A stretch of DNA of 64,000 bases, from positions 1 to 64,000 of the forward strand of contig CAKZUE010000007.1 of assembly GCA_937920635.1 (NCBI GenBank). Reading direction: 5' to 3'. Every line of letters begins with the position of its first letter. Position 1 is the first letter of the stretch. The translations under genes were made by a program, and so were the position numbers. This DNA is from an uncultured Bryobacteraceae bacterium (GTDB taxonomy: Bacteria; Acidobacteriota; Terriglobia; Bryobacterales; Bryobacteraceae). A model generated the notes under the pieces. The model was not told where the DNA came from, made no database searches, and was given only the letters and a program-made list of their open reading frames with translations. This document shows positions 1 to 64,000 of the stretch, piece after piece.

Positions 1-187
1 CGGCTCGGATGCGGGTCGGATGAGGGTCGGATGGGGGGCGGATGCGGGCGGGGGACCGCTTGGTCGCGCCGTTGGCGCTCCCGCGCGGCTCGGATGCGGC
101 TCGGATGCGGGTCGGATGCGGGTCGGATGGGGGGCGGATGCGGGCGGGGGACCGCTTGGTCGCGCCTGCGGCGCTCCCGCGCGGCTC
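1..187. repeat. GC-rich tandem repeat at window edge
   Basis: About two copies of a 96-bp unit. The block from the run of six G's through the segment GGGGGACCGCTTGGTCGCGCC recurs with a 96-bp offset and almost no change. Inside each unit there is a shorter 11-bp periodicity built on TCGGATGCGGG. It ends a few bases before the stop codon of the adjacent hemerythrin gene and is cut by the left edge of the window, so the copy number is a minimum. No plausible coding use is seen; reading frames through it give only Gly/Arg/Ala-rich low complexity. Confidence 0.85.
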
Positions 188-189
188 TT

Positions 190-600
190 TCATGCGGCCC
201 GGCTGCGCGCCTTGACGAACTCGGCGAATTCCCTGTCGGTGCCAAGAATGTGCCGGTTGAGCCAGTCTTTGAGGAACTGCAGGATGGTCAACGAGACCGT
301 GGCGCGGCCCTTGAGCACCTCGGCTGCATATTCCTCGACTTTCGCCGTCAGGGCCAGGTGTTTCTGCTTGTGCGATGGCAGCGCCGGATAGCTCGCCTCC
401 GCCATCAGCCGTTCCTCTGTGGCGAAGTGATACTTCGTGTAAAGAATCAGCTCCTCCATCACGCGCATCAGCTCGCGCGGCTGGCTGCCGGCGCGCATCG
501 CCTGATGCAGCTCGTTCAGGATCTTCACGAGTTGCCGGTGCTGGCGGTCCATCTGTTCCACGCCCAGCTCGAGAGTGGGGTTCCATTCAATGAGAGCCAT
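190..600 (-). CDS. bacteriohemerythrin
   Basis: A 136-residue single-domain hemerythrin, a di-iron protein that binds O2 reversibly and is used by microaerophiles for oxygen storage, delivery or sensing. All expected iron ligands are visible in order: H21 in DRQH, H58 and E62 in HFATEE, H77 and H81 in HKQKH, and H117 and D122 in HILGTD. The length is what the stand-alone family shows, and there is no signal peptide, so it is cytoplasmic. The reading frame stays open far upstream, but the domain begins exactly at the chosen ATG (MALIEWN), with a GAGGA motif a little upstream. It follows a small exported protein on the same strand 59 bp upstream, and its 3' end touches the tandem repeat. Confidence 0.93.
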   Translation of the reverse strand: MALIEWNPTLELGVEQMDRQHRQLVKILNELHQAMRAGSQPRELMRVMEELILYTKYHFATEERLMAEASYPALPSHKQKHLALTAKVEEYAAEVLKGRATVSLTILQFLKDWLNRHILGTDREFAEFVKARSRAA

Positions 601-1090: not shown

Positions 1091-2611
1091 TCACAGTTCG
1101 AACCGGATTCCCTGCGCCAGGGGCAGATCGCGCGACCAGTTGATGGTCACCGTCTGCCGCCGCATGTATGCCTTCCAGGCGTCGGAGCCGGCTTCGCGCC
1201 CGCCGCCGGTCTCCTTCTCGCCGCCGAACGCGCCGCCGATTTCGGCGCCGGAGGTGCCGATGTTGACGTTGGCGATGCCGCAGTCGGATCCGCGCGCCGA
1301 CAGGAACGTCTCCGCCGCGATCAGGTTGCGCGTGAAGATGGCCGAGGAGAGCCCTTGCGGCACATCATTGTGCCAGCCGATGGCCTCTTCGAGGTCTGAA
1401 TACTCGATCAGATAGAGAATCGGCGCGAAGATCTCTTCCTTCACGATCGGCATGTCGGCGCGCGCCCGCACGAGCGCCGGCTCGACGAACCAACCGGCGC
1501 GTTCCAGGCGGCGCCCCCCGCAGATCAGCTCGCCGCCCTGATCGCTGGCCCGCCGCAGCCCGTCCATCATCTCTTCCACCGCCGCGCCGTTGACCAGCGG
1601 CCCCATCACCGTGTGCGCATCCAGCGGATCGCCGATGCGGATCTGCGAGTAGGCGTGCTTCAGCCTTTCGATAAAGGCCGCCGCAATGTCGCGGTGCAGG
1701 AAGATGCGCCGGATGGTGGTGCAGCGCTGGCCCGCGGTGCCCACGGCCCCGAACAGCACGGCGCGCAAGGCGAGGTCGAGATCGGCGTCCGGCTCGATGA
1801 TGACGCCGTTGTTGCCGCCCAGCTCGAGAATGGTGCGGCCCAGCCGTTTGCCCACGACCTCCGCGACGCGGTAGCCCATCTGGCAGCTTCCCGTAGCGCT
1901 GACCAGCGGCACGCGCGGATCGGCCAGCAGTCGCTCGCCCACCGTCGAGCCGCGCCCGATGGCGAGCGTGAACACGCCGGGCCAGCCGTTGTCTTCGAGC
2001 ACCTTCTGGCAGATCCGCTGTACGGCGACGGCGCACAGCGGCGTCTCCGAGCTCGGCTTCCAGATCACCGTGTCGCCGCAGACCGCGGCGATGAAGGCGT
2101 TCCAGCTCCACACCGCCACCGGGAAATTGAAGGCCGAGATGACGCCCACCGCGCCCAGCGGGTGCCACTGCTCGTACATGCGGTGCTGCGGCCGCTCGCT
2201 CTGCATGGTGAGCCCGTAAAGCTGGCGCGAGAGGCCGACGGCGAAGTCGGCCATGTCGATCATCTCCTGCACCTCGCCCAGGCCCTCGGCCAGGATCTTG
2301 CCCATTTCGAGCGAGACCAGCGCGCCCAGCGCCTGCTTGTGCTCGCGCAGGGCGAGCCCGATCTGGCGGATCACCTCGCCGCGCTTCGGAGCGGGGTGCA
2401 TGCGCCAGCGCAGGAACGTCTCGTGCGCGGCGGCGGCCACGTGCTCGTAATCTTCCGCCGAAGCCATCGCCACGCGCGCCAGCGGCTCGCCCGTGGACGG
2501 GTTGTAACTGACAAGATCGCCTCCGCCGGGGTGATCGATCCACGCGGCGCCGCACGCGCCCGGATTCCATTCGCCAATGCCGAGCCTGGCCAGGATCTCT
2601 TGAGGATTCAT
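1091..2611 (-). CDS. ALDH7-type aldehyde dehydrogenase (alpha-aminoadipate semialdehyde dehydrogenase)
   Basis: 506 residues, the size of the ALDH7 (antiquitin/AmaB) subfamily. These NAD-dependent enzymes oxidise alpha-aminoadipate semialdehyde to aminoadipate in lysine breakdown and also act on other aldehydes. The fold motifs are present: catalytic-support N162 in AFNFPVAVW, K185 in WKPSS, E263 in LELGGNN and nucleophile C297 in TAGQRCTT. The phrases GNNGVIIEPDADLDLA and FGAVGTAGQRCTT are typical of ALDH7 rather than betaine-aldehyde or succinate-semialdehyde dehydrogenases. The start is an ATG giving MNPQEIL. It stands on the same strand 49 bp downstream of agmatine deiminase; both act in nitrogen or amine catabolism, which would fit a joint polyamine/lysine-derived amine role, but no other lysine-pathway gene is here. 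Confidence 0.88.
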   Translation of the reverse strand: MNPQEILARLGIGEWNPGACGAAWIDHPGGGDLVSYNPSTGEPLARVAMASAEDYEHVAAAAHETFLRWRMHPAPKRGEVIRQIGLALREHKQALGALVSLEMGKILAEGLGEVQEMIDMADFAVGLSRQLYGLTMQSERPQHRMYEQWHPLGAVGVISAFNFPVAVWSWNAFIAAVCGDTVIWKPSSETPLCAVAVQRICQKVLEDNGWPGVFTLAIGRGSTVGERLLADPRVPLVSATGSCQMGYRVAEVVGKRLGRTILELGGNNGVIIEPDADLDLALRAVLFGAVGTAGQRCTTIRRIFLHRDIAAAFIERLKHAYSQIRIGDPLDAHTVMGPLVNGAAVEEMMDGLRRASDQGGELICGGRRLERAGWFVEPALVRARADMPIVKEEIFAPILYLIEYSDLEEAIGWHNDVPQGLSSAIFTRNLIAAETFLSARGSDCGIANVNIGTSGAEIGGAFGGEKETGGGREAGSDAWKAYMRRQTVTINWSRDLPLAQGIRFEL

Positions 2612-4532: not shown

Positions 4533-4943
4533 GGCACGCCGCGGGCCGTCGTTTCCGTCATGACTGGGGGGCCTGATCGCCTCCACGGAGTGGCCCCGAC
4601 AGTGGCTGGCCGGCCGCGAACGGGGGCGAAAGATTGGCGCCGGGCCGGCCTATCCCCACCTTTCGATCAGAACCGCGACTGAAGCGAGCTCCAGTCCCGC
4701 GGGAAGGAAAGGCCCCGGCCAGGATCGAAAAGCGGCGCCTGTCGCACCAGGCCGGTGTGTTGTTCCGCTTCTCTCCATGAGGCAGTCCGGGCAAGCCTCA
4801 CCTGGAAACCGGCAAAAGCCCCTTGACCGCCTTCGCCCCCATGCAGCCTGTCCCCCAACGCGGGTATCCGTCCAAGAACCCCGATCCCCACATGCCCCTC
4901 TCCCGCCCGCGCCCGCACCTCCCCCGCTATCCTGAAAAAGCCC
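4533..4943. other. 411-bp gap without a convincing gene
   Basis: No reading frame here has a credible start, signal or domain; the longest minus-strand frame is Arg/Gly/Pro-rich and unlike a gene. The gap holds one copy of a dispersed palindromic repeat (listed separately) and, further right, a short CCTGTCCCCC string that also occurs in the other copy at the right end of the window. It separates the exported hydrolase-like gene from anmK and should contain the anmK promoter, which I could not place. Confidence 0.6.
4611..4669. repeat. dispersed palindromic repeat, family P, copy 1
   Basis: A roughly 58-bp element beginning CGGCCGCG, followed by a G-run, a short A-rich bit, TGGCGCCGGGCCGGCCT, then CCCC and a T-rich end. 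The G-run and C-run can pair, giving an imperfect stem. The same order of blocks occurs at the extreme right of the window (63941-64000). Similar G-run/CCTGTCCCC palindromes are common between genes in many bacteria, some of them tied to REP-associated transposases. No such transposase is present here, so that link is only analogy. Confidence 0.6.
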
Positions 4944-11372: not shown

Positions 11373-12629
11373 TCACCCCGCAGTCATCGACTCCGCATCC
11401 CACGTGCAGATGCGGCCTTCGGAATAGCTCGTGTTGCACAGCAGCGCCGGTCCGGCGGCGCGGAAGCCGAACACCGCGTCCTCGAAGTGCGGCTTGCGCG
11501 TGCGCACCGCCTGGATGAAATTCGCCATGTGGCGCCGGTGCGCGTCTTCGCCGGAGACGAACCGAGTCTCGCCCGCGGCATCCAGCGTCTGCGCCGTCAC
11601 CTTCACCGGCGGATACTTCTTGCGGTACTCGCGCAGGTACTGTTCCTGCACCGCTTTCGGGAACGTGTCGATGATGTAGCCCGGCTCGCGCTCTTTCGGA
11701 TGCCGCTGGAGCGTCACCGTGCGCACGTCGGTCGTCAGCGTGCCCTCGTTGCCGATGAAGCGGAAGCCGAAATCCTCCTGCGGCTTCGAGCTCTTGAAAT
11801 TCACCCGCAGCAGGAAGGTGAATTCAGGATGCGAAGCCGTCTTCGGATAATCGATCACGGCGTACTGCGCGTCCGGCGTCTCGCGTCCGTCGCGCCAGTA
11901 GCGGATGCCGCCCGTCGAGTAGATCCGCACCGGCCCCAGCGCGCCCGTCGCCGTGTGCAGCCCGGTCAGCAGGTGCACGTACAGGTCGCCCGCGATCGCG
12001 GTGCCGTAGTCGAGATAATTGCGCCACCGGAACAGCCGGATCGGCTCGAACGGACGCTTGGGCGCGTGCCCGAGGAAGCCGTCCCAGTCCACGTTCGCAG
12101 GCGACGCATCGGGCGGAATCGAGTACTGCCACGCGCCCATCGCCGTGTTGCGGTCGAGCCACGCCTCCACCATGTTCAGCTCGCCGATCGCGCCCGCGCG
12201 GATCATCTCGGCGATCTTGTGGAAGCTGAGCGCCGAGGCATACTGGCTTCCCACCTGGAAGATGCGCCCGCTCTTGCGGTGGGCTTCGACCACCTGCCTG
12301 CCTTCCTCGATCTTCTGTACCATCGGCTTCTCGCAGTAAACGTCCTTGCCCGCCGCCAGAGCGTCGATCGAGATGCGCGCGTGCCAGTGGTCCGGCGTCG
12401 CGATAATCACCGCGTCGACGTCCTGGCGCGACAGCACCTCGCGGTAATCGCGCGTGGTGAAGATGCCCGGATACGTCTCCTGCATCTTTTTCAGCCGCGC
12501 GTCGTAGATGTCGGCAGCCGCCACCACGCGCACGCCGTCGTTGAGCAGCGCATCGCGCACGTCGCCCTGCCCCATGCCGCCGGAGCCGATCAATGCGATC
12601 TGAATCGTGTCGTTCGCCGAGTATGCCAT
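11373..12629 (-). CDS. Gfo/Idh/MocA-family oxidoreductase, no signal peptide
   Basis: 418 residues. The N-terminal Rossmann domain opens IQIALIGSGGMGQGDVRDAL, and the family E-K-P motif is intact in VYCEKPMVQ, with the catalytic-type Lys. The C-terminal alpha/beta domain has GELNMVEAW and HLLTGLH (His in the usual place). Members oxidise or reduce sugars and sugar-like alcohols with NAD(P). It is a close tandem paralogue of the upstream gene (shared DYREV, DAVIIATPDHWHARI, WRNYLDYGT), but has lost the Tat leader and should be cytoplasmic. Nine bases separate the two genes. Confidence 0.9.
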   Translation of the reverse strand: MAYSANDTIQIALIGSGGMGQGDVRDALLNDGVRVVAAADIYDARLKKMQETYPGIFTTRDYREVLSRQDVDAVIIATPDHWHARISIDALAAGKDVYCEKPMVQKIEEGRQVVEAHRKSGRIFQVGSQYASALSFHKIAEMIRAGAIGELNMVEAWLDRNTAMGAWQYSIPPDASPANVDWDGFLGHAPKRPFEPIRLFRWRNYLDYGTAIAGDLYVHLLTGLHTATGALGPVRIYSTGGIRYWRDGRETPDAQYAVIDYPKTASHPEFTFLLRVNFKSSKPQEDFGFRFIGNEGTLTTDVRTVTLQRHPKEREPGYIIDTFPKAVQEQYLREYRKKYPPVKVTAQTLDAAGETRFVSGEDAHRRHMANFIQAVRTRKPHFEDAVFGFRAAGPALLCNTSYSEGRICTWDAESMTAG

Positions 12630-12638
12630 CGCCGCCTC

Positions 12639-13976
12639 CTACGCCTTCGCCTTCAGGTTCACCGGATCCCATTGCACGGTCTTGCCGCCGAAATAGCTCG
12701 TATTGCTGAGCACGGCGGGCGCCGCGGCGCGGAAGCCGAACACCGCGTCCTCAGTCAGCGGCTGCCGCGTGCGCACCGCCTGGAAGAAGTTGACATGGTG
12801 CTCGTATTGGTCGCTGTAGCCGCGCGGGGGCAGCCAGCGCTCTTCTTTCGCCGCGTCCATATTGGCCGTTGTCGCCTCGCGCGGCGGATATTTCTTGCGG
12901 TGCTCGGCGAGGATCTTTTTCTGCGTCTCGCTGTCGAACGCGCCCGCGCTCGTGCCCGGATCGCGCTCGGGCGGCGGCTGGATCAGGGTCACGCCGCGGT
13001 CAATGACCAGCACGCCCTCGCTGCCGGTGAAGCGGAAGCCCGAGCTTTCGCCCGCGCCGTTGACGAAGTTCACCCGCAGCGCCAGGTTGAACGCCGGGTG
13101 CGATTTCGCCTTCTCGTAGTCGTACAACCCCACCATCACGTCGGGCACGTCGCGCCCGTCTTTCCAGTACCGCAGCCCGCCAGCGGCGAAGATCCGCGCG
13201 GGTCCGAGCGAATCAAGCACAAAGTGCAGCCCGCTGAACAGGTGCACGAACAGGTCGCCCGCCACGCCCGTGCCGTAATCCTGATAATTGCGCCAGCGGA
13301 ACAAGCGCACCGCGTCAAACGGCCGCTTGGGCGCATGGCCGAGGAAGCGGTCCCAGTCCACCGTCTGCGGCGAGGCGTCCGGCGGAATCGGATACTGCCA
13401 CGCGCCGAGCGAGGAGTTGCGGTCCCACCAAGCCTCCACCATGTTCAGCTCGCCGATCGCGCCCGCCAGGTACAGCTCGCGCGCCTTGGCGTAGACGGCG
13501 CTGGAGACGCGCTGGCTGCCCACCTGCACGATGCGGCTGGTGCGGCGCGCGGCTTCGATCACCGGCAGCCCTTCTTCCACGCGCTGCACCATCGGCTTCT
13601 GGATGTAGACGTCCTTGCCCGCCTCCATCGCGTCGATGGCGATGCGCGCGTGCCAGTGATCGGGCGTGGCGATGATGACCGCGTCGACGTCCTTGCGCGC
13701 GATCACTTCGCGGTAGTCGCGTGTGACGAAAACGTCCTTGCCCCAGACTTCCTGCGCGCGCGTGAGACGCCCCTGGTAGATGTCGGCGACGGCCACCAGC
13801 TTCGTGCCGGGCACGCTGACGGCGGTCTGCGTATCGCCGTAGCCCATGATGCCGAGGCCGATCGTGGCAAACTGAATACGGTCATTCGGCGACCGGCCGG
13901 CCTGCTGCGCCGCCGCAGGCAGGGCCGACGCGGTGACTGCGGTTGTTTTCAGGAAATGACGCCGCGTGGATGGCAT
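12639..13976 (-). CDS. Gfo/Idh/MocA-family oxidoreductase, Tat-exported
   Basis: 445 residues with a Tat-type leader (STRRHFLKTTAVTASALPAAA), so it should be exported folded with bound NAD(P). Rossmann motif: FATIGLGIMGYGDT. The usual E-K-P triplet is changed to Q-K-P in VYIQKPMVQRVEE while the catalytic-type Lys remains. The C-terminal domain retains GELNMVEAWWDRN and HLFSGLH. Export of these dehydrogenases is common in acidobacteria and planctomycetes. First gene of a probable three-gene operon with its paralogue and the NYN protein; divergent from the PAP2-type gene. Confidence 0.9.
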   Translation of the reverse strand: MPSTRRHFLKTTAVTASALPAAAQQAGRSPNDRIQFATIGLGIMGYGDTQTAVSVPGTKLVAVADIYQGRLTRAQEVWGKDVFVTRDYREVIARKDVDAVIIATPDHWHARIAIDAMEAGKDVYIQKPMVQRVEEGLPVIEAARRTSRIVQVGSQRVSSAVYAKARELYLAGAIGELNMVEAWWDRNSSLGAWQYPIPPDASPQTVDWDRFLGHAPKRPFDAVRLFRWRNYQDYGTGVAGDLFVHLFSGLHFVLDSLGPARIFAAGGLRYWKDGRDVPDVMVGLYDYEKAKSHPAFNLALRVNFVNGAGESSGFRFTGSEGVLVIDRGVTLIQPPPERDPGTSAGAFDSETQKKILAEHRKKYPPREATTANMDAAKEERWLPPRGYSDQYEHHVNFFQAVRTRQPLTEDAVFGFRAAAPAVLSNTSYFGGKTVQWDPVNLKAKA

Positions 13977-14013
13977 GACTCCATTCTATCGGCGGCGGCA
14001 GGCAGCGGAACGG

Positions 14014-14859
14014 ATGCCGGAATTTCGCAGGAGCGAGTGGATCTGCCTCGCCTATTTCACCTACACGGCCATGGTGGCGGCGCTGCGGCCGCTCGCCACA
14101 GGCGTGCGGCTCGAGGTGTGGGCCGCCGACCTCGCCGTCTGGTCCGCGCTCTGGTTTCTCGCTTCGCGCCGCGCCGCGCAGAGCGAGCCGCTCCGTGTTC
14201 TGCGCGACTGGCTGCCGCTGGCTCTGATTTTGCTCGCCTACAGGCAGATGGGCTGGATGGCGCTGCCGCACGACAACCGGAATTTCGAAAATGCGTGGAT
14301 CGGTCTGGACCGAGTGCTGCTGCTGGAGTGGGGATTGAAGCGCGCCATCGAATCGCTGGGGCCGCTCTTGCCCAACGTGCTCGAGCTCTCCTATCTGCTC
14401 GTGTACGTCATGCCCGTGGCGGCTACGGCGGTGTTCTATGCTTTCGGTGCGCGCCAGCGGCTGGATGACGCCTATGGGATCATTTTGTCGGCCACGCTGA
14501 CCACATACGCGCTGTATCCATATTTCCCGAGCGAGCCGCCGCGCTCCGTGTTTCCGCTCGACGACCTGCCGGTGATGAGCGCGCTGCGCGCGTTCAATCT
14601 GAAAATTCTGGGCGCGTACGGCATCCACATGAGCGTCTTTCCCAGCGGCCATGCGGCGGCGGCTTTCGCCTGCGCCTTCGCCGTGCGGCGCCTGCTTCCC
14701 GAGCGCCGCGCGGCGGGACGCGTGTTTCTGCTGATGGCTGTGCTGATTGCGGTGGCGACGGTGTATGGGCGGTACCATTTCGCCATCGACACGATCGCCG
14801 GCCTGGGGATGGCGCTGGCGGCTTCGTGGGTGCATCGGGCTGCATTTCGATGGCCGTGA
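14014..14859 (+). CDS. PAP2-type membrane phosphatase
   Basis: 281 residues with about six hydrophobic segments. The PAP2 signature appears as VFPSGHAAAAF followed by YGRYHFAIDTIAG, giving the catalytic His pair and Asp. These enzymes dephosphorylate lipids such as phosphatidate or undecaprenyl pyrophosphate, or act as inositol-phosphoceramide-synthase-like transferases (the EPPRSVFP stretch resembles the latter group). The chosen ATG (MPEFRRSEW) has a GGCAGCGGAACGG leader. An in-frame ATG 48 bases upstream would overlap the divergent dehydrogenase start. A two-hairpin element lies 25 bases after its stop. Confidence 0.85.
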   Translation: MPEFRRSEWICLAYFTYTAMVAALRPLATGVRLEVWAADLAVWSALWFLASRRAAQSEPLRVLRDWLPLALILLAYRQMGWMALPHDNRNFENAWIGLDRVLLLEWGLKRAIESLGPLLPNVLELSYLLVYVMPVAATAVFYAFGARQRLDDAYGIILSATLTTYALYPYFPSEPPRSVFPLDDLPVMSALRAFNLKILGAYGIHMSVFPSGHAAAAFACAFAVRRLLPERRAAGRVFLLMAVLIAVATVYGRYHFAIDTIAGLGMALAASWVHRAAFRWP

Positions 14860-14884
14860 AGCGGCTCGAGGGCGTTCAACAGAG

Positions 14885-14934
14885 CTGTGGCTGAAGGGCG
14901 CCAGAGCGCCCGCAGAGAGCGGCCCCAAGGGGCG
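14885..14934 (+). repeat. two-hairpin dispersed element, family H, copy 1
   Basis: Fifty bases containing hairpin 1 (GGGCGC, 4-base loop CAGA, GCGCCC) and hairpin 2 (GCCCC, AA, GGGGC). The other copy is 63852-63901 and aligns without gaps at 39 of 50 positions. All differences sit in loops or linkers except one C-G to T-A exchange that preserves pairing in hairpin 2. It lies just after the stop codon of the PAP2-type gene. Confidence 0.75.
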
Positions 14935-14938
14935 TTTT
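14922..14938 (+). terminator. possible intrinsic terminator of the PAP2-type gene
   Basis: The second hairpin of the family-H element (GCCCC AA GGGGC) is followed by G and four T's. The stem is GC-rich but only five pairs and the T-run is short, so it would be a weak intrinsic terminator. The copy at the right end of the window lacks a T-run at this place, so termination is not clearly the element's shared role. Confidence 0.4.
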
Positions 14939-14973
14939 GACGCGCGCACGCCGCGCGGGCGACCGCTTACTCC

Positions 14974-15002
14974 GGCCGGAATTGCCGCCGGCAATTCCGG
15001 CC
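14974..15002. repeat. perfect 13-bp inverted repeat (strong stem-loop)
   Basis: The arms GGCCGGAATTGCC and GGCAATTCCGGCC pair perfectly around a three-base GCC loop. It is followed closely by two direct copies of CGTGCGCGGCAC. It sits in the 278-bp gap between the PAP2-type gene and the next exported protein, which has no gene of its own. No T-run follows on either strand, so it is not an ordinary terminator; a REP-like element or mRNA structure is possible. Confidence 0.7.
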
Positions 15003-15137
15003 TTCGTGCGCGGCACAGAACCAAACCTCGTGCGCGGCACGGAAGCACGCCCTGTGCGCAACGGGCGCGCACCGCACGCTGTATGCTGGGAATACTTCAG
15101 GAAGCCGAATGCCGATTGCGACGGGGGGACACCGCGC

Positions 15138-61879: not shown

Positions 61880-63832
61880 ATGCGGAAACAAAACTTACTG
61901 GATTTGATTCGGCAGGCCGTGGCTGCCGGACTGTGTCTGGCCCTCGCCCTGCCTGCTTCGCCCGCCGAGCTGCCCCCTCCCTCGGACGCTCCGCTCGGGA
62001 GCCGGTTCGAGCTGCCCCACCCCCGCGGCCCGCGCTTCCTGCGCCCCTACCAGCGACCGGACGTGCCGCCAGCACGGCTGGAAAACTCCAACCGCCTCGA
62101 ATCGCTCCTCCGCGCCGGCATCCTCTATCTGAGCCTCGCCGACACCATCGCCATCGCTCTGGAAAACAATCTCGATCTCGAGCTGTCCCGCTACACGCCG
62201 ATGATCGCCCAGGCCGATCTGCTCCGCGCCCGCGCCGGCGGCCTGCTGCGCGGCGTGCCCACCACCGTGCGGGCCACCGCCCAGAGCGTGCAGGCCCAGG
62301 TCGCCGGCGGCGCCACCGGCGGAGCGGGCATCACCAGCGCGCAGGCGGCAGCCGCGGGCGGCGACTCCGGCGGCGTCGGCGGCGCCGTGATCACGCAAAC
62401 CGGCGTCGCTGTGCCCACCCTCGATCCCTTCTTCTTCTCCAGCACCACCATCGGCCACCGCTCCTCCCCCCAGTCCAACACAATCACTACTGGCACCACG
62501 GCTCTCGTCTTCGATACCCGCCAGTTCAACTTCGGCTACCAGCAGAACTTCCTCTCCGGCACCAGCCTCACCTTCGCCTGGAACAACAGCTTCTTCGAAT
62601 CCAACAACCGCAACTCCGTCATCAACCCGGGCTGGAACCCTGCCGCGCAGCTCCAGATCACGCAGCGCCTGCTCCAGGGCTTCGGCCTTGCCGTCAACAA
62701 CCGCAACATCCGCGTCGCCCGCAACAACCTGCGCGTCAGCGACCTGACCTTCAAGCAGCAGGTCATGGTCACCGTCGCCGGCGTGGTCAACCTCTACTGG
62801 GATCTCGTCAGCCTGAATGAAGACGTCAAGGTCCGCCGCAAGGCCCTCGAAGTGGCCCGCAAGTTTTACGAAGACAACAAGGCGCAGGTCGCCATCGGGA
62901 CCCTCGCGCCCATCGAGATCGTCCGCGCCGAGGCGCGCGTCGCCCAGGCCGAGCAGGACCTCACCAACGCCGAGACAGCGCTGCTCCAGCAGGAGACCAT
63001 TCTGAAAAACGCCCTCAGCCGCACCGGCGTGGCCAGTCCCGCCATCGCCGATGCCCGCATCGTCCCCACCGACCGTCTGGGCGAGCCCGAGCCGGAACGG
63101 CTCGACCGCTTGCAGGAGCTGGTCGATCTCGCCCTCCGCTCCCGCCCCGACGTCGAGCAGACGCGCATCGGCCTGGAGAACAACCGCATCCAGATCGCCG
63201 GCTCCCGCAGCCAGCTTCTGCCCTCGCTGGACCTGACCGCCACGCTGCAAAACAATTCGCTGGCCGGCAGCCGCAACGCCCTGCTCCCGCCCGGCAGCCC
63301 GCTCGCGCCCGACCCCTTCTTCATCGGCGGCTATGGCACGGCCCTCAGCCAGCTCTTCCGCCGCAACTTCCCCGACTACTCCATCGGATTCAACCTCAGC
63401 ATCCCCATCCGGAACCGCACCGCGCAGGCCGACTACGTCCGCGACCAGATCTCGCTGCGGCAGGCCGAGCTCAATCAGCAGCGCCTCCACAACGACATCC
63501 GCGTCAACGTGCAGAATGCGCTCATCGCCGTCATCCAGGCCCGCGCCCGCTACGAGTCCGCCGTCAAGGAGCGCCGCCTCCAGGAGCAGACCCTGGACGC
63601 CGAGAACAAGAAGTACGCGCTCGGCGCCTCCACCGCCTTTCAGGTCGTGCAGACGCAGCGCGATCTCGCCCAGGCCCAGGCCGGAGAGGTGGCCGCGCTG
63701 GCCGCCTACAACCGCGCCCGCGTCCAGCTTGATCTGCAAACCGCCCAGATCCTGGACAAATACGGTGTCACCATTGAAGAAGCCCGCCAGGCGCGCAGCA
63801 GCCGCCCCATCCAGACGCCGCCCGCGCCCTGA
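61880..63832 (+). CDS. TolC-family outer-membrane efflux protein
   Basis: 650 residues with signal peptide AVAAGLCLALALPASPA. Two outer-membrane-efflux repeats: LADTIAIALENNLDLE near the N-terminus, VVNLYWDLVSLNEDVKVRRKALEVA and the second with LFNPD-like segments and long helices ENNRIQIAGSRSQLLPSLDLTA. A Gly/Ala-rich insert (about residues 125-170: QVAGGATGGAGITSAQAAAAGG) and a beta-rich part (DTRQFNFGYQQNFLSGTSLTF) follow. The ATG at MRKQNLLDL was preferred to one 78 bases up. No inner-membrane pump or adaptor is next to it in the window. Confidence 0.9.
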   Translation: MRKQNLLDLIRQAVAAGLCLALALPASPAELPPPSDAPLGSRFELPHPRGPRFLRPYQRPDVPPARLENSNRLESLLRAGILYLSLADTIAIALENNLDLELSRYTPMIAQADLLRARAGGLLRGVPTTVRATAQSVQAQVAGGATGGAGITSAQAAAAGGDSGGVGGAVITQTGVAVPTLDPFFFSSTTIGHRSSPQSNTITTGTTALVFDTRQFNFGYQQNFLSGTSLTFAWNNSFFESNNRNSVINPGWNPAAQLQITQRLLQGFGLAVNNRNIRVARNNLRVSDLTFKQQVMVTVAGVVNLYWDLVSLNEDVKVRRKALEVARKFYEDNKAQVAIGTLAPIEIVRAEARVAQAEQDLTNAETALLQQETILKNALSRTGVASPAIADARIVPTDRLGEPEPERLDRLQELVDLALRSRPDVEQTRIGLENNRIQIAGSRSQLLPSLDLTATLQNNSLAGSRNALLPPGSPLAPDPFFIGGYGTALSQLFRRNFPDYSIGFNLSIPIRNRTAQADYVRDQISLRQAELNQQRLHNDIRVNVQNALIAVIQARARYESAVKERRLQEQTLDAENKKYALGASTAFQVVQTQRDLAQAQAGEVAALAAYNRARVQLDLQTAQILDKYGVTIEEARQARSSRPIQTPPAP

Positions 63833-63851
63833 GCTTCAACAGGCAGGAGAA

Positions 63852-63901
63852 CTGCGGCTGGAGGGCGCAGGAGCGCCCGAAGGAAGCGGCTCCTCGGAGC
63901 G
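63852..63901 (+). repeat. two-hairpin dispersed element, family H, copy 2
   Basis: Starts 20 bases after the TolC stop. Hairpin 1 is GGGCGC, loop AGGA, GCGCCC; hairpin 2 is GCTCC, TC, GGAGC. Against copy 1 (14885-14934) eleven of fifty bases differ: nine in loops or linkers and two at one paired position (C-G to T-A). A further short hairpin, GGCCC..GGGCC, lies at 63901-63915 before a CCTTT, which may act as a weak terminator. Confidence 0.75.
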
Positions 63902-63940: not shown

Positions 63941-64000
63941 CGGCCGCGGGCGGGGGGGGCGGAAAACTGGTGCCAGGCGGGCCTGTCCCCCGTTTTCACA
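63941..64000. repeat. dispersed palindromic repeat, family P, copy 2
   Basis: Matches copy 1 at 4611-4669 block by block: CGGCCGCG, a long G-run, GGAAAA, TGGTGCCAGGCGGGCCTGT, CCCCC, then T-rich end. The copy reaches the edge of the window, so its right end is not seen. The G- and C-runs can form an imperfect stem. Located in the gap after tolC beside family-H copy 2. Confidence 0.6.

Follow-up and report, generated by a model that had tools for sequence, protein, structure and literature searches.

Short self-pairing intergenic repeats in a Bryobacteraceae genus and their probable relation to class 3 TnpA transposases

Two similar sequences in the window, which is the whole stretch of 64,000 nucleotides analysed here, belong to a large dispersed family of short self-pairing intergenic DNA repeats; the family is real, with 101 distinct copies of at least 29 bits in the window's genome, 99 of them intergenic. 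The 43-nt unit is an imperfect palindrome that, as single-stranded DNA, would adopt a three-tier hairpin structure preceded by a short 5' foot, which is CNG[AT] in most cases. Judging from sequence comparisons, the units are probably REP-like non-autonomous single-stranded DNA hairpins moved by class 3 TnpA, and the mobile form is probably an inverted pair with the feet outside. This reading accounts for repeats of the genus that otherwise resemble candidate RNAs.

A dispersed family of three-tier hairpins

The initial annotation had described positions 14885-14934 and 63852-63901 as two copies of a two-hairpin intergenic element, and re-alignment reproduces its ungapped match of 39 out of 50 bases. 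As a chance control, 5 of 400 random 50-mers from the window had a best match of at least 39 elsewhere in it. Each copy comes after a same-strand stop codon, as that annotation had stated: the first lies after a PAP2-family ORF (13966-14859), and the second after an outer-membrane efflux (OEP) ORF ending at 63832, whose stop is 16 nt from the unit. When the two hairpins are drawn, the 11 differences also fall where they had been placed, with one compensated pair. The claim of two copies in 64 kb, on the other hand, was an undercount, given that the window alone holds at least five units.

A first covariance model, built from the two copies as had been proposed, gave 33 matches at E<0.01 in the window's own genome (83 at E<=10), and the flanks of these matches showed common unit limits, with a start of G[TA]GCCGCG and a finish of AGCGG[TC]C. 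A second model, R2, was built from 43 hand-bounded units, a set that omits the long-stem partner found in the window and one match without a clear 3' end (L072). Over 79 own-genome loci, R2 gave 123 matches, which became 101 after removing repeats from overlapping loci and rows below 29 bits; the 43 model units are among these 101 and match by construction. Many intergenic copies with several compensated pairs are the outcome that the initial annotation had named as supportive. The features of the window are the following, with positions on the forward strand.

14882-14924, plus strand: unit 1 (first copy of the initial annotation), a three-tier hairpin; R2 54.4 bits, E=2e-8; among the units used to build R2
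14880-14883: foot of unit 1, CAGA, read from the sequence
14961-15016, minus strand: unit paired with unit 1 in inverted orientation; inner stem of 13 bp, foot CTGT outside; R2 38.0 bits, outside the model set; DNA fold z -4.57
14882-15016: inverted pair formed by unit 1 and its partner, 135 bp, from the list of pairs
14925-14960, plus strand: spacer of the pair, 36 nt, containing most of the former hairpin 2 (14922-14933; not conserved in the family)
63849-63891, plus strand: unit 2 (second copy of the initial annotation); R2 53.2 bits; among the units used to build R2
152-187, minus strand: unit of a sister sub-type, GAGCCGCG-CGGGA-GCGCC..GGCGC-GACCA-AGCGG; weak R2 match of 19.5 bits at 150-187
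56-91, minus strand: another unit of the sister sub-type; over 36 letters it does not differ from one adjoining the transposase gene on contig C69; absent from the R2 list
4670-4714, plus strand: probable degenerate unit; R2 26.3 bits, E=0.0058

No inverted partner was found for unit 2. Tandem 11-mers like CGGATGCGGGT surround the two sister-type units at window positions 1-200.

The fold of the family is one three-tier hairpin, composed of an outer GCCGC:GCGGY stem, a 2-bp middle stem and an inner stem of 5-7 bp. The two-hairpin RNA reading was dropped: hairpin 2 is not conserved and lies mostly outside the unit, and a downstream stem of at least 4 is found in 60 of the 101 units against 60.2 expected when the downstream 19 nt are shuffled. 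The single covarying pair that had been offered as evidence finds no support either, and the real covariation sits in the inner and middle stems. In the 43 units, standard pairs occupy 90.9% of the cells, two-sided changes number 28 against 11.2 +/- 2.6 in shuffled alignments, and covariation is 0.256 against 0.133; two further measures, how many pairs show a two-sided change and how many pair types occur, were not above the shuffles.

Because the 43 units came from a model that holds structure, the test was repeated on units defined by their outer letters only, for which all 34 units taken from 37 outer-letter matches were used, including one or two that look like chance matches. In this set, covariation was 0.240, compared with 0.121 in shuffled alignments and no more than 0.083 in slid ones. 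The middle stem had 54 of 68 Watson-Crick pairs against 27.5 with partners shuffled (0 of 5000 shuffles reached 54), and the longest interior stem was at least 5 in 23 of the 34 units against 15% of shuffles. The two type-counting measures were again not above shuffles, and the inner helix was paired in only 69.1% of the cells because stems of unequal length are out of register with one another. In the hypervariable head formed by the inner hairpin, the letters vary and the pairing persists, with the inner-stem variants GGGCGC, GGCCGC, GGCGGC, GCGGCC, GCGGGC and GCGCC and the middle-pair variants CT:AG, AC:GT, GC:GC, GT:AC and CC:GG. Compared with its complement, the unit strand gives the better fold in 88 of the 101 units with DNA parameters and in 87 with RNA parameters; with the latter, the fold energy has a mean z of -2.3 and lies below -1 in 86 units.

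At E<=0.1, R2 matches number 105 in the window's genome (G000), 55 in G004 and 27 in G003; G002 has 14 weak matches and G001 has none. Three of the five genomes of the genus carry the units clearly. With a threshold of E<=0.001 and stricter filters, 3 of 150 genomes of the family were matched, all of them in the window's genus, and none of the 145 family genomes outside the genus had a match at E<=0.001. The outer-letter pattern GTGCCGCG-N(23-34)-AGCGGYC occurs at 37 places in the window's genome against 5 for the reversed pattern; the corresponding numbers are 18 against 6 in G003, 14 against 8 in G004, 2 against 5 in G001, and 3 against 3 in G002, which is control level. A looser first regular expression was discarded, with 1769 matches against 1892 on the reversed sequence. 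A strict pattern run over 84,980 species genomes, a collection from which this genome and its near relatives are possibly left out, returned three stretches in unrelated organisms, which are probably due to chance. On six contigs of G003 (C28, C43, C157, C143, C36 and C112), units lie within about 100 bases of the contig ends; therefore, these repeats probably break assemblies, and counts from draft genomes may be too low.

Arrangement, gene context and comparison between species

A neighbour within 250 nt is present for 45 of the 101 units and absent for the other 56. These neighbours form 17 +/- pairs, 4 -/+ pairs, 3 +/+ pairs and no -/- pair; in the +/- pairs the feet are outside, the spacer measures 21-22 nt in 6 of 17, and a pair length of 106-109 bp is found in 6 of 17. 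G004 has tandem arrays of two kinds, in which either pairs recur every 136 bp or single units recur every 145 or about 273 bp. Around the unit, conservation covers only the preceding four bases, TTC[TA], and one or two following C. The two units that are not intergenic lie in one long ORF.

Gene context was assigned with a simple codon-usage finder, whose calls are rough and missed the PAP2 ORF of the window. With these calls, the context is co-directional for 40 units, convergent for 34 and divergent for 15, and 10 units are at an edge; over the same loci, the gaps of the first three kinds add up to 16.7 kb, 12.5 kb and 12.1 kb. Gene 3' ends are closer to the units than gene starts: a distance of at most 60 nt was measured for 20 of 113 3' ends and for 4 of 75 starts. 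Both the distribution among contexts and the nearness to 3' ends speak for a 3'-UTR RNA element, be it a terminator, an mRNA-stabilising hairpin or a cis-regulator, kept by selection at gene ends, which was the leaning of the initial annotation; the strength of the hairpins and the 34 G-U pairs against 18 A-C cells on the unit strand of the 43-unit alignment point the same way. We nevertheless consider such an element an unlikely explanation. In co-directional gaps, 23 units run along the genes and 17 against them, which is no clear strand preference, and neither the inverted pairs and tandem arrays, nor the matching loci of G003 and G001 that are devoid of the element, nor the hairpins flanking a transposase gene in G004 agree with it. 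The Rfam scan of the window also gave no match above the gathering cut-off of any family.

The initial annotation had left the choice between a folded RNA and a structured DNA element. Its folded, structure-preserving element stands, its two-hairpin anatomy does not, and the evidence favours structured DNA because of the inverted pairs, the tandem arrays, the lack of a clear strand preference and the HUH transposase gene flanked by units in a congener. A role as RNA is also possible, and effects on mRNA 3' ends might be a by-product of the DNA element.

The pairs could also suggest a MITE of an ordinary DDE insertion sequence with TTCTGTGCCGCG as its terminal inverted repeat, as many of them have terminal inverted repeats of about 12 bp and the length of 106-109 bp recurs. 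We regard this origin as very improbable, since the internal stems covary, which a plain terminal inverted repeat does not need, more than half of the units are single, and the gene that the units flank is of the HUH type.

At the PAP2 locus, the alignment has 30 bases in G003 where the window's genome has 187, and the corresponding locus of G001 has no unit. At the efflux locus of G003, a unit lies about 300 bases downstream on the opposite strand (L133, 34.0 bits). Some unit-bearing intergenic sites seem common to several species; when 82 own loci were compared with 32 others, 7 locus pairs turned out to be related, a number too small to yield a rate. The presence of units is patchy but not wholly unshared, because the PAP2 locus differs while some sites seem common. 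Alignment of the window locus to G003, G001 and G002 revealed no target site or duplication, the extra sequence being clear and its edges not. From the copy number and the patchy presence, we infer that the units move.

Class 3 TnpA genes and their hairpins

Class 3 TnpA_Y1 proteins, according to Quentin et al. (2018, PMC6006769), have the motifs HxH and Y----Q, and their genes are flanked by several "atypical secondary structures" with a CNGA foot, of which about 600 genomic copies are present in Solibacter usitatus; the authors proposed that the class may be intermediate between IS200-type transposases and those of REPs. A literature search that reached few subscription papers found no later work on it.

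When the motif-bearing Y1_Tnp protein L065 of G004 was used as query, one gene was found in the window's genome (L179, on contig C69) and two more in G004 (L180 and L181), and all four proteins share HxH and Y----Q. Against the Pfam Y1_Tnp cut-off of 23, L065 scores above (28.1 bits) and L179, L180 and L181 score below (19.2, 18.6 and 13.0 bits); all four are below the NCBIfam cut-offs, and a PDB search with the class 3 protein profile found no chain at E<=1.

Units of both sub-types lie beside class 3 TnpA genes. For the main sub-type, L181 (ORF 1492-1986, minus strand) lies between inverted pairs of units, three of them on one flank and a single one on the other, with 38.6-49.3 bits. For the sister sub-type, L179 has four units downstream, which R2 scores at only 19.5-20.5 bits, a weakness that slightly lowers our confidence in the reading; their two forms are identical over 36 nt to the window units at 152-187 (36 of 36 letters) and 56-91. 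The contig of L179 begins 163 bases before the gene, and its start, AGCGGTCCC, looks like the end of another unit upstream. Units of similar form, read in the sequence, are on both sides of L180. R2 found no unit near L065 and, consequently, not every class 3 gene uses the unit hairpin. The cognate gene for the main sub-type of the window was found only in the sister species and not in G000, and G003 has 27 R2 matches, yet the profile and query search found no class 3 gene in it.

When the 150 family genomes were searched with a profile built on the four proteins, 57 gave matches, some by fragments only. Outside the genus, 28 loci were returned, and HxH and Y----Q are present in every one of them. 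We scanned these loci for hairpins with the same outer stem, allowing one change per arm and requiring five pairs. Within 400 nt of the gene, such a hairpin is present on both sides in 12 of the 28 loci, on one side in 6 (two of which, L187 and L200, look doubtful) and on neither in 10; the control gave matches in 8 of 173 windows of 400 nt, taken from 25 loci around weak R1 matches in genomes of the family, order and class, and thus not random. A plus-strand hairpin on the left faces a minus-strand hairpin on the right in 10 of the 12 two-sided loci, and in 7 of these the feet start 30-50 nt to the left and 43-68 nt to the right of the match. A strict short form, consisting of a CNGA foot and GC[CT]G[CT] and GCGGY arms with 9-16 bases between them, occurs 27 times in the 100,434 bases of 31 class 3 loci, three of which are from the genus, and 0 times in 75,504 bases of controls.

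The typical hairpin outside the genus, CCGA-GCCGCG-ACC-GTGA-GGG-AGCGGT, shares its outer stem with the units and continues with a middle stem and a GNNA-like loop. Unlike it, the units described here have an extra inner hairpin in place of the short loop, which suggests that in the window's genus the GNNA-like loop became an internal loop bearing a further hairpin, a derived state.

The feet differ as well. Among the 101 units, the foot is CNGA in 11, CNGT in 53 and neither in 37, with CTGT (30), CAGT (12) and CCGT (10) as the commonest, whereas CNG[AT] is found at 3.5% of random places. At class 3 loci outside the genus, CNGA is the foot in 34 of the 35 hits printed, with a pattern that permitted A or T.

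Our units resemble the class 3 TnpA_Y1 system of PMC6006769 in the HxH and Y----Q motifs, the several flanking hairpins and the high copy number. They differ from it in their foot, which is mostly CNGT, the published hairpin being compared by its description in the text and not by its letters; the gene-less inverted pairs and the tandem arrays are described here. With REPINs and BIMEs (PLoS Genet. 2011, PMC3116915), the units share the arrangement in inverted doublets, which are the likely moving unit, and in tandem clusters of these, the extragenic location, and singlets interpreted as remnants; the difference is that REPINs and BIMEs go with RAYTs and other REP sequences, and the units with class 3 TnpA. 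The GTAG and CGTC REPs (Di Nocera et al. 2013, PMC3733652) likewise combine a foot with a stem-loop, have sub-families with complementary stem changes, form head-to-head dimers and are located mostly downstream of genes, but the commonest feet of our units are neither GTAG nor CGTC. Neither the GTRG foot beside the stem that defines GTAG REPs nor the CGTC foot of CGTC REPs is among the commonest feet of the 101 units. The best reading is that the units are REP-like and represent a new variant to which a hypervariable inner hairpin has been added.

That they could be classical GTAG REPs moved by a RAYT, encoded by the Y1_Tnp genes on contigs C48 and C17 of the window's genome, is the least credible of the explanations and most improbable: these genes do code for REP-type tyrosine transposases (PF01797, 53.9 and 49.1 bits; NCBIfam REP_Tyr_transpos, 60.8 and 78.2 bits, under the cut-off of 80), but their flanks carry other repeats, GGGGACAGGCCCGCC... 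and AAAAGGGGACAGGAACACAATTCCCC..., R2 reaches at most 12.7 bits near them, and the commonest unit feet are not GTRG. The RAYT of the same genome was dropped as the mover on account of those other repeats, and no unit was found beside any of the RAYT-like genes L062 and L064 of the window's genome or L063 of G004.

In the mechanism that we consider probable, the units would be the non-autonomous partners of class 3 TnpA_Y1 HUH transposases, whose genes lie between or beside such hairpins. The hairpin would form on exposed single-stranded DNA, and class 3 TnpA would recognise its foot and stem and then cut and join through its tyrosine, as suggested by the HUH and Y----Q motifs and the kinship with IS200 and REP transposases. 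The unit or the pair would thus be copied to other intergenic places, which is consistent with the copy number and the patchy presence. The genomes offer candidate stages of this process, in the form of inverted hairpins with a gene between them, inverted pairs lacking a gene, single units and arrays; these are spread over five species with 105, 55, 27, 14 weak and 0 matches, and therefore the recognition of the hairpin and its spread are testable.

A more tentative extension, to which we give rather little credence, is that the inner hairpin is an exchangeable recognition head, that each sub-type would be read by its own class 3 TnpA paralogue, and that heads would be swapped as blocks. The sub-types would be those with the inner stems GGGCGC, GGCCGC, GGCGGC, GCGGCC and GCGCC and their matching middle stems. 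Two hints point to it: the heads of the units beside L179 and L180 differ from those beside L181, and in the 136-bp tandem array at L171 the fourth copy differs at 7 places of the dimer, 4 of which make up two whole inner-stem pairs and 1 is a loop base. If this were true, DNA hairpins and transposases would be matched in a small code that evolves within the genus.

Other repeats

A second dispersed repeat, GGGGACAGGCCCGCCTGGCACC, lies at window positions 63961-63997 and near 4657 on the minus strand, and was found at 28 places in the own-genome loci examined together with the window. The copy after unit 2 sits in a tandem duplication that extends past the end of the window. The repeat fits the GGGGWSAS terminal inverted repeat motif of TIRYT transposases (PMC3733652), flanks the Y1_Tnp gene on C48, and is unrelated in sequence to the 43-nt unit.

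A longer form of about 170 nt begins with a unit-like hairpin, which is followed by a conserved CGGGACATCAGC-TGGATGAAAATC domain and the end GAGGGAGCGG. Nine copies were examined (L007, L023, L024, L066, L073, L078, L084, L153 and L165); in L007, the end runs into a GGGGACAGG repeat. When eight of the nine copies were aligned, with L007 omitted, this form with its internal GGGACATCAGC domain had little covariation (term 0.2), and for that reason we make no claim on its structure. In L084, Rfam ar14 gave a weak match off the units, with 40.1 bits against a cut-off of 58.8, and was set aside.

On C17 (L064) and in G004 (L063), a Y1_Tnp gene lies between inverted AAAAGGGGACAGGAACACAATTCCCCTTTT repeats, with the same upstream ORF in both species, which we take to encode a sugar-isomerase-like protein. 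Lastly, the window region 11415-13737 contains direct repeats 1269 bp apart with 78-81% identity, which are probably two tandem paralogous genes.
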